Assembly (NCBI RefSeq): GCF_015482585.1
Contig: NZ_CP049742.1
Coordinates: 2,573,001-2,637,000, forward strand
DNA: 64,000 nucleotides
DNA from: Mangrovibacillus cuniculi
GTDB taxonomy: Bacteria; Bacillota; Bacilli; Bacillales; R1DC41
Direction of reading: 5' to 3'
Shown: piece by piece, positions 2,358-48,463 of the stretch
Position numbering within the stretch: position 1 is the stretch's first letter
Layout: the number at the start of each line of letters is the position of its first letter
Position numbers and translations under genes: made by a program
Notes under the pieces: model-generated
The model's database searches: none
What the model saw: only the letters and a program-made list of their open reading frames with translations
What the model was told of the DNA's origin: nothing

Positions 2358-3254
2358 ATGTTTACACGATTAGATCGTTTGTTAATTGAATTACCTATCC
2401 CAGAGCACGGTGATGCAAATGCTGCTGCTGCAGTACAAGAACTACTAGGTGGTAAATTTGGTGAGATGTCTACCTTAAACAACTATATGTATCAATCATT
2501 TAACTTCCGTCATAAGAGTAAACTGCGTCCTTTCTATGACCTCGTCGCAAGTATTACTGCTGAGGAATTTGGCCACGTAGAGTTAGTTTCTAATACAATC
2601 AATCTTCTTTCTGTTGGCAATACATTTAATGTCGGGGATCCAAATATCCCTCAATTAGGACTAGGAAAAGACATGCGTAACACACACCATTTTATCGCTT
2701 CAGCACAAGCATCTTTAGCAGCTGATTCAATGGGAAGACCATGGACTGGTGATAACGTATTCACTAGTGGAAATCTTGTTTTAGATTTACTTCATAATTT
2801 CTTCTTAGAATGTGGTGCAAGAACACATAAAATGCGTGTATATGAAATGACAGATCACGAGACTGCTCGTGAAATGATTGGATACTTACTTGTTCGTGGT
2901 GGAGTACACGTTGTTGCCTATGCTAGAGCAATCGAAATGGCCACTGGTGTTGATGTAACGAAGCTGATACCAATTCCAGATGTCAGTAACCGTAAGTTCG
3001 ATGTAGCTAGAAAGTATGAGGATCAAGGTCTAGGAAATGTATTATACACTTGGAGTGTTAACGGGGATTATAAAGAGATCTCTAAGATTTGGAAAGGAGT
3101 TCATCCTGAGTCTGGCGAACGTCTCATCGTACAAGAAGGATATCCAAAAGGAGGACCAATTCCTGATCTGGATAACTTACCTGAGGAGTTTGCTCCAGGT
3201 ATAGATCGGGATGATTATGCTCGAATTGCTAAACGTTTAATGGAAAACTTGTAA
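2358..3254 (+). CDS. Manganese catalase
   Basis: Non-heme catalase disproportionating hydrogen peroxide with a di-manganese centre. The 298-residue ferritin-like helical bundle shows all five expected ligands: E36 (GKFGEMS), E70 and H73 (AEEFGH), E151 (FFLECGAR) and H184 (RGGVHV), with spacings like those of the Thermus enzyme. SD AAGGAGG lies before the ATG. The yuzF-like gene is 12 bp upstream and the rhodopsin gene 69 bp downstream on the same strand with no clear terminator between, so read-through into the rhodopsin is likely. A separate heme catalase is encoded at 18580, making this enzyme partly redundant. Confidence 0.95.
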   Translation: MFTRLDRLLIELPIPEHGDANAAAAVQELLGGKFGEMSTLNNYMYQSFNFRHKSKLRPFYDLVASITAEEFGHVELVSNTINLLSVGNTFNVGDPNIPQLGLGKDMRNTHHFIASAQASLAADSMGRPWTGDNVFTSGNLVLDLLHNFFLECGARTHKMRVYEMTDHETAREMIGYLLVRGGVHVVAYARAIEMATGVDVTKLIPIPDVSNRKFDVARKYEDQGLGNVLYTWSVNGDYKEISKIWKGVHPESGERLIVQEGYPKGGPIPDLDNLPEEFAPGIDRDDYARIAKRLMENL

Positions 3255-3291
3255 ATTAGACGATTACAGATCATCTTTTATGACTATACTA

Positions 3292-3323
3292 GGTCCCATC
3301 CCGTAAAAGGAGGGACCATTTTC
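3292..3323 (+). promoter_or_regulatory. SD-sequestering hairpin before the rhodopsin gene
   Basis: GGTCCC (3292-3297), a bulged A, then TCC (3299-3301) can pair with GGAGGGACC (3309-3317) around a 7-nt loop. The 3' arm contains the whole Shine-Dalgarno (AGGAGG) for the ATG at 3324. A possible -10 box, TATACT, lies at 3285-3290; a start about 7 nt downstream would fall inside the left arm. A terminator reading is weak because only ATTTTC follows. Confidence 0.65.
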
Positions 3324-4016
3324 ATGCCTACATTTATTCAATCTACACATGTAGTATATGCTTTTTTTATGATTGCTGGATTTCTATATTTTTGGTGGTT
3401 AAGTAGAAAACCAAAAGGTATTCCTCGAATCGAGTATTTGATCGCAATGTTTATCCCGGTTTGGTCTGGAACTATGTATTTAACTATTGCTTATGACATT
3501 GGTGTAATTGAGCTTGGAGGTACTCCCGTCTTTTTCGGTAGATATTTGGACTGGCTTATTACCACCCCGTTGTTACTAGTTGCCTTAGCATTAACAGCCA
3601 TGTTTAGAGAAAAGAAGAAAGACTTCACTATTCTAATTGCGCTAGTGATTGCGGATATTGTCATGATTCTAACTGGTATGGTTGCGGATATCGCAGTTAC
3701 TTCTTCCAAATGGATTTGGTATAGTATCGGTGTTATTGCATTAATCTGCATTTTCTATTTCGTCTTTGGGCCATTAAACAAAATTGCCAAGCGTGGTGGA
3801 CCTGACCTTCACAAACATTATCGAATTTGCGCTTTGTATTTATCTTTTTTTTGGATTGCATATCCCGTGTTTTGGGCATTAAGCCCATCTGGTACAGGTG
3901 CAGCATCATTGTCTTCTAGTGTCATTGCATTTATTGTTCTACCTATTTTCTCTAAAGTAGGATTCAGTATTTTAGATATTACCGGACTTCGCAAGCTATC
4001 TGCTAGGGAACAATAA
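3324..4016 (+). CDS. Xenorhodopsin (predicted inward proton pump)
   Basis: A 230-residue seven-helix microbial rhodopsin. Helix C reads [15 protein letters not shown], giving R73, D76, T80 and A87 at the positions of bacteriorhodopsin R82, D85, T89 and D96, a D-T-A motif without a cytoplasmic proton donor. The retinal Schiff-base lysine is K211 in FSKVGF. Four residues before it, where bacteriorhodopsin has D212, stands P207, the hallmark of xenorhodopsins such as Anabaena sensory rhodopsin and NsXeR. D218 lies seven residues after the lysine, like the proton-accepting aspartate of NsXeR. Known xenorhodopsins pump protons inward or signal. No brp/blh retinal-forming gene is in the window. The SD is inside a hairpin, and the last 21 bp overlap the convergent msrAB gene. 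Confidence 0.93.
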
Positions 4017-5874: not shown

Positions 5875-5936
5875 CTAGAGATGTTTGTTCCTAATCTTCA
5901 TTTGTTTTATTCCCCGGAAAATAATGTCGTATTTCC

Positions 5937-5983
5937 CACACAATTTGTCGATGTTTCACATGGAACATTCGACAAATTGTGTG
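5937..5983. promoter_or_regulatory. 47-bp palindrome upstream of the DHA2 exporter
   Basis: CACACAATTTGTCGA (5937-5951) is repeated inverted as TCGACAAATTGTGTG (5969-5983), and the bases between also pair (TGTT with AACA), so the palindrome is nearly continuous. TATAGT at 5985-5990 could be a -10 box. It looks like a TetR/MarR-type operator or a very stable leader hairpin. Confidence 0.6.
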
Positions 5984-6024
5984 ATATAGTGAACATAGTT
6001 TGCAATTTTTTGGAGGAAATACTC

Positions 6025-9905: not shown

Positions 9906-9940
9906 AAGACGAGGAGATGATCCTCGTCTTTACTTTTTGT
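9906..9940 (-). terminator. Bidirectional hairpin downstream of yebC
   Basis: AAGACGAGGA pairs with TCCTCGTCTT. On the minus strand it lies past the yebC stop; on the plus strand it is followed by TTTACTTTTT, which runs directly into the stem-loop repeat. Confidence 0.75.
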
Positions 9941-10002
9941 TACGTGACCGGTAACAACTCATCGTTAGCCACGTGATGTGGCTTGTTCTTAGATGAGTAT
10001 CC
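9937..10002 (-). repeat. Two-stem-loop terminator-associated repeat, copy 1
   Basis: In minus orientation: GGATACTCATC, then GCCACATCACGTGGC, CGATGAG and TTGTTAC..GTCACGTAACAA. Stem 1 closes CTCATC with GATGAG around the GCCAC/GTGGC hairpin; stem 2 closes TTGTTAC with GTAACAA. It abuts the yebC stop codon on one side and the terminator hairpin on the other. Confidence 0.8.
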
Positions 10003-10725
10003 TTATTCTTCACCTAGATCAACGTTATGATAGACTTGTTGCACATCATCTAAATCTTCTAATGCTGCGATCAGTTTATCAAACTGCGCTAAATCCGCTT
10101 CTGACACTTCCACTTCTGTCTGTGGCAGCATGGTAATCTCGGCAATGGAGAACTCTTCGACACCAGCTTCACGAATTGCTGATTGCGTGGCGTGAAGTTG
10201 GTCTGGCTCTGCATAAACGATGACGGAATCGTCTTCTTCTAACACGTCACGAGCATCAATATCCGCCTCTAGTAAAATTTCTAAAACTTCATCAGCTGAT
10301 TTTCCTTCGAAACCAATAACAGCTGTAGCATCAAACATATAAGAAACGGAACCAGATACACCCATATTTCCGCCATTTTTACCAAAAGCAGCACGAACTT
10401 CTGAAGCTGTACGGTTAACGTTGTTTGTCAGAGCATCTACGATAATCATAGAACCACTCGGTCCAAATCCTTCGTAACGAAGCTCATCAAAGTTTTCGTC
10501 TGCACCACTTTTTGCTTTATCGATGGCACGGTCGATAATATTACGAGGTACGTTATACGTTTTTGCTCTTTCAATTACCATGCGAAGCGATGTGTTTAGC
10601 TCTGGATCTGGCTCACCTTGTTTCGCTACTACATAGATTTCTTTTGCAAATTTATTATAGACCTTACTAGTATTAGCATCTTTTGCTGCTTTTTTTTCTT
10701 TAATATTGTTCCATTTACGTCCCAT
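10003..10725 (-). CDS. YebC family protein (YeeI/YebC2 type)
   Basis: A 240-residue protein beginning [20 protein letters not shown], the signature of the second YebC paralogue of Bacilli (YeeI in B. subtilis), with the typical central [13 protein letters not shown] segment and acidic third domain. YebC proteins were long annotated as transcriptional regulators; more recent work places YebC-type proteins at the ribosome, relieving stalling at proline-rich stretches. Cytoplasmic. SD GGAATTCC is poor but the start agrees with the family. Monocistronic, with a downstream terminator and stem-loop repeat immediately after the stop codon. Confidence 0.9.
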
Positions 10726-48343: not shown

Positions 48344-48463
48344 AATAAGCCCCTTACAAAAGTAAGGGGCTCTCCAAGTTTGCGGCGGTCATAAGCCACG
48401 CTCCACAACGTGTTCCTTAAAAAGGAGTGCTTATCCGTCTTATGCAAACGGGCTCATCGCATA
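48341..48463 (-). ncRNA. Unassigned structured small RNA or leader
   Basis: About 120 nt bounded by a consensus SigA promoter and a strong terminator (AGCCCCTTAC/GTAAGGGGCT then TTATTTTT). The RNA can fold into a long arm: GTTTGC with GCAAAC, CGG with CCG, ATAAGC with GCTTAT, and inner hairpins TCCTT/AAGGA and ACAC/GTGT. The 5' GAGCCC could compete for the terminator's GGGGCT arm, so it may be a leader for the nitroreductase operon ~190 nt downstream. I cannot match it to a known riboswitch, 6S, SRP or T-box. No reading frame of note. Confidence 0.7.

Follow-up and report, generated by a model that had tools for sequence, protein, structure and literature searches.

A candidate translational block on read-through RNA in the leader of a xenorhodopsin gene of Mangrovibacillus cuniculi

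The window analyzed here is a 64,000-nucleotide stretch of the Mangrovibacillus cuniculi genome (contig NZ_CP049742.1, positions 2,573,001 to 2,637,000 of the forward strand), which totals ∼3.15 Mb; the genomes used for comparison belong to the same order only. Three codirectional genes lie on the + strand: a DUF2642 gene (2127-2345; Pfam PF10842), a manganese catalase gene (2358-3254; Pfam PF05067), and a xenorhodopsin gene (3324-4016; Pfam PF01036) encoding 230 amino acids from an ATG at 3324. A gene for a fused methionine sulfoxide reductase opposes this trio. The nearest solved structure for the rhodopsin product is that of a xenorhodopsin, PDB 7zmy (phmmer E 2.7e-73). Bacillus coahuilensis was an earlier source of a xenorhodopsin-class protein (PMC3198991), and inward proton pumps occur among the xenorhodopsins according to one report (PMC13093656). 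Searches of the whole genome for genes of retinal supply returned no RPE65-type carotenoid oxygenase and no blh/BCD (PF15461), although the control for the PF15461 search was likewise empty; one gene of the phytoene/squalene synthase family is located at 632709-633461 in the genome.

The catalase and rhodopsin genes are separated by 69 bp, in which a terminator scan with tail scoring found no terminator, and this gap contains a hairpin on the + strand. Its 5′ arm, GGTCCC-A-TCC (3292-3301), is paired at 3292-3297 and 3299-3301 with A3298 bulged, and is followed by the loop CGTAAAA (3302-3308) and the 3′ arm GGAGGGACC (3309-3317). In computed folds, GGUCCC-A-UCC forms 9 bp with the 3′ arm, with a stem energy of about −13.5 kcal/mol. 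The 3′ arm holds the GGAGG of the rhodopsin Shine-Dalgarno (SD) sequence, AAGGAGG (3307-3313, +), both As of which are unpaired. The initial annotation had described a 9-bp stem with one bulged A covering the whole of AGGAGG; the stem, its bulge, its coordinates, and the complete pairing of GGAGG (3309-3313) are borne out by folding, whereas A3308 falls in the loop. When RNA was folded from position 3180, the probability that GGAGG is unpaired was 0.03 and the cost of opening it was 11.6 kcal/mol, placing the ribosome binding site (RBS) in a stable stem. Rfam covariance models gave no match near 3292-3323.

Immediately upstream lies a putative promoter (3263-3290, +) composed of a −35-like ATTACA (3263-3268), a 16-nt spacer, and a −10 element, TATACT (3285-3290). 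Together the two hexamers match the consensus at 9 of 12 positions, with a weak −35, and in a simple promoter scan such sites were no commoner than chance. Position is more informative in a comparison of 46 rhodopsin leaders with an SD sequence, dereplicated to 38: 15 of the 38 had an ATACT ending 12-27 nt upstream of the SD, as against 16 of 276 genes of the M. cuniculi genome (6%), and the motif occurred at 28-43 nt in none and at 44-59 nt in one. The corresponding binomial tail is about 1e-9, a statistic that ignores shared ancestry. The leader from B. coahuilensis (L034) reads TATACTAG, at nearly the same distance from the SD. Judged from these alignments of position, the −10 is conserved in place among Bacillaceae xenorhodopsin leaders, and the start expected from it would remove GGTCCC.

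With a distance of 7 nt from −10 to start, transcription is predicted to begin at 3297, or at the purine A3298. Trimming the RNA from its 5′ end in the folding calculations opened the SD site between 3295 and 3297, and RNA beginning at 3297-3298 retained only a 4-bp UCCC/GGGA pairing, with the probability of unpaired GGAGG rising from 0.03 to 0.55 and the opening cost falling to 5.2 kcal/mol. Transcripts beginning near 3297-3298 would thus be without most of the left arm, leaving the GGAGG site open. The earlier proposal of promoter choice, in which read-through RNA is closed and promoter-derived RNA is open, thus gains computational and comparative support from the conserved −10, the effect of truncation, and the codirectional catalase gene with no terminator behind it.

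The rarity of such closure was assessed by computing the SD-opening cost of leaders (−60 to +20) for a gene set obtained by simple ORF calling over 2.05 Mb of this genome, so that ranks are approximate. The rhodopsin leader, at 11.7 kcal/mol, ranked 15th of 1302 genes, several of those above it resembling terminators beside mis-called GTG or TTG starts, and 5th among the 657 genes that begin with ATG and whose SD match is 6 or more. When its 5′ flank was dinucleotide-shuffled, 15 of 1000 versions were equally closed, as were 17 of 3000 leaders with random 16-nt inserts between the −10 and the SD. Closure of this leader is therefore notable, at about 1% (0.6-1.5% of randomized leaders), and a few leaders this closed are expected per genome from chance alone. 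Among strongly closed leaders, 16 cost at least 9 kcal/mol to open compared with 8.8 in shuffles, and among the 657 genes, 5 reached at least 11.67 compared with 1.1. The excess of SD-burying leaders was concentrated 40-150 bp behind codirectional genes, where 10 leaders reached a cost of at least 8 against 4.1 in shuffles (P about 0.01), while the other contexts gave 6 against 5.0 (divergent neighbors) and 3 against 3.8 (spacing below 40 bp). This concentration is only suggestive, since several contexts and thresholds were examined, and upstream terminators that overlap an SD may make up part of the excess.

An equivalent stem was sought in the rhodopsin leaders of relatives, a comparison the initial annotation had put forward, naming lack of conservation as a refutation, and none was found: their median SD-opening cost equals background, and isolated high costs at L013 and L036 stem from different stems. 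The absence is weak counter-evidence and is of little bearing on the genus, because the closest rhodopsins among the relatives are about 55% identical and their upstream neighbor is mostly a different gene. Closer rhodopsin relatives were not found in viral contigs, and plasmids yielded distant rhodopsins only. The catalase gene is missing from all of the relatives' loci, and in most of these the upstream neighbor is divergent. Of the few loci examined with a close codirectional neighbor, most have a terminator-like stem in the gap (L046, L049, L027, and L010, that of L010 being weaker), and in L039 one is visible by eye. Among the loci compared, only that of M. cuniculi combines a codirectional neighbor at 69 bp with the lack of an intervening terminator. 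This pattern of neighborhoods, a correlation over few cases, fits a lineage-specific insulator.

The favored reading, given a probability of roughly 0.5, is that the stem acts as a translation block on read-through RNA and that the pump is made from the gene's own promoter. Transcripts presumed to enter from the catalase gene would carry both arms, the stem would fold, GGAGG would be hidden, and no pump would be made. Own-promoter transcripts, predicted to start at about 3297-3298, would lack GGTCCC, form at most the weak 4-bp UCCC/GGGA pairing, and be translated. Against this reading stand the absence of the stem from every relative and their background median SD cost, the ∼1% of random leaders that are as closed for a case picked from a 64-kb window, a genome-wide excess that is small (P about 0.01), and the weak −35. 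The main rival is a chance fold: the SD would face a complementary run of CCC by accident, the stem would serve no selected function, the gene would be transcribed from its own promoter only, and there would be little read-through. Such a fold, a serious contender to which about a third of the weight is assigned, would account for the shuffles and random inserts that close equally well, for the confinement of the stem to this lineage among those compared, and for the roughly one such case per 657 genes that shuffles predict. It sits less easily with the 5 cases observed against 1.1 expected at the rhodopsin's cost, with the perfect overlap of −10 and arm beside an exposed codirectional neighbor, and with the recurrence of the same logic in the genome's sigG and spoIIAA leaders, as described below.

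Three further explanations give the stem another role. FourU and ROSE elements are RNA thermometers with the SD in a stem, a feature that the rhodopsin leader shares, and its bulged stem is like that of many thermometers. Thermometer-like control had been suggested for this leader, yet in the computed ensemble of read-through RNA the SD stayed shut from 20 to 70°C, the probability of unpaired GGAGG being 0.03 at 20-45°C, 0.03-0.05 over 20-60°C, and 0.09 at 70°C, and that of promoter-derived RNA was flat at about 0.55 across temperatures. Opening is thus computed to occur far above the physiological range, the stem has no FourU run, and Rfam offers no match, which leaves a thermometer very improbable. 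Somewhat less improbable, though still unlikely, is that the stem serves the catalase unit as a weak intrinsic terminator, its 3′ arm being at the same time the SD, and that it halts some of the read-through RNA, either in place of a translation block or in addition to one. The stem is GC-rich and followed by ATTTTC, and the catalase gene has no other terminator, but the tail ATTTTCATG has four T only and scores 3.17, where a tail of T alone would reach 7.15, and the terminator scan made no call at the stem. A DNA operator, in which the dyad GGTCCC-N14-GGGACC over the start site binds a repressor, must be counted a slim prospect; the dyad does span the expected start, with half-site centers about two helical turns apart, but it occurs once in the whole genome, is absent from the relatives' leaders, and owes its right half to the SD. 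Translational coupling to catalase was also considered and is unlikely, because the stop at 3254 lies 38 nt before the stem, a distance that probably exceeds the reach of a terminating ribosome.

The favored reading, a block on translation of read-through RNA, has known counterparts. In B. subtilis sigG (spoIIIG), arranged alike, a large hairpin buries the RBS only in RNA arriving from the codirectional spoIIGA-sigE and is proposed to prevent its translation (PMC5942855 and its references 9 and 52). RNA from the sigG promoter is without the 5′ arm, as proposed for the rhodopsin; a weak RBS stem of 5 bp (−6.2 kcal/mol) remains in it, and rhodopsin RNA may likewise retain one (PMC5942855). The two differ in that the sigG stem has 20 or more bp with a 5′ arm upstream of the start site, whereas the rhodopsin stem has 9 bp and an arm that abuts the −10, and in that the rhodopsin is unrelated to sporulation and its stem is absent in relatives. 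Long early RNAs of the phage T4 genes e, soc, 49, and I-TevI also fold over the RBS, while a late promoter in or beside the 5′ arm yields a short, translated RNA, much as modeled for the rhodopsin, with a reported effect of about 100-fold for gene e (PMC3014915, PMC2988022). The T4 cases involve a phage sigma factor and temporal control and are experimentally proven, whereas the rhodopsin is a chromosomal gene with a sigma-A-like putative promoter. In IS10 and IS50, the RBS is hidden in RNA that enters from outside and is open in the element's own transcript; the gene concerned there is the transposase of a mobile element, and the rhodopsin locus shows no transposon features. Predicted RBS hairpins can also be inert, as that of pvuIIR was, though at just −4.6 kcal/mol (PMC2997769). 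By analogy, the rhodopsin leader is a plausible new case of the mechanism known from sigG and T4 gene e.

Similar leaders occur elsewhere in the M. cuniculi genome. In the sigG leader (L206 1325-1385), a long stem buries the SD (TTCCTCCC...GGGAGGGAA, also written TTCCTCCCAAGGAG...CTCCTAGTGGGAGGGAA), and its 5′ arm occupies the promoter spacer, flanked by a GCATA-like −35 and a GATACTG-like −10. For the large hairpin at this position in B. subtilis, a role in keeping read-through RNA untranslated has been proposed, and RNA made from the sigG promoter is unable to form it (PMC5942855). At spoIIAA (G000:C1 near 1405014, −), an arm lies directly behind a GAGAAT −10, and most Bacillales spoIIAA leaders (L171-L200) contain an inverted repeat, GACTCACTATA...TATAGTGAGTC (A1 columns 45-55 with 85-95), whose right arm holds the GTG start codon and whose left arm abuts a sigma-H-like −10. 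The gene in the dacF position is codirectional, about 93-165 nt upstream. The arms are paired in 74% of cells, compared with 34-47% for slid partners, and both sides change in 6 of 11 pairs; covariation is modest, given that part of the right arm is coding sequence and that slid controls show double changes just as often. The repeat has the appearance of a conserved block to read-through at the sigF operon; no report of it was found in the literature searched, and an Rfam search assigned it no family. Five further SD-burying stems (cost 9.6-14.8) lie behind codirectional genes, at G000:C1 2000362 (+), 840304 (+), 1058669 (+), 1411988 (−), and 2473337 (−), and in some of them the loop contains a hexamer resembling a −10.

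A wider and more doubtful generalization is that spore-forming Bacillaceae widely use start-site-clipped RBS hairpins, and not terminators, against read-through RNA, with sigG as the known case, spoIIAA behind dacF as one apparently conserved throughout the order, and the rhodopsin behind catalase as one newly evolved. If the rhodopsin reading is true, a mobile accessory gene for a light-driven pump would be insulated from a new neighbor through translation and not by a terminator, and a searchable rule would follow: a −10, an SD-complementary arm, and an SD, behind a codirectional gene. RNA-seq coverage alone would then mislead on the expression of such genes, as it would include long RNA that is not translated.

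Other features of the window include a near-perfect long palindrome, ACACAATTTGTCGA...TCGACAAATTGTGT (5934-5986), upstream of an MFS transporter gene and possibly an operator. Rfam matches in the window were to Bacillaceae-1 RNA and BsrF, at 9939-10008 (−) and 48349-48460 (−), and a second copy of Bacillaceae-1 lies upstream of sigG (L206 959-1027).
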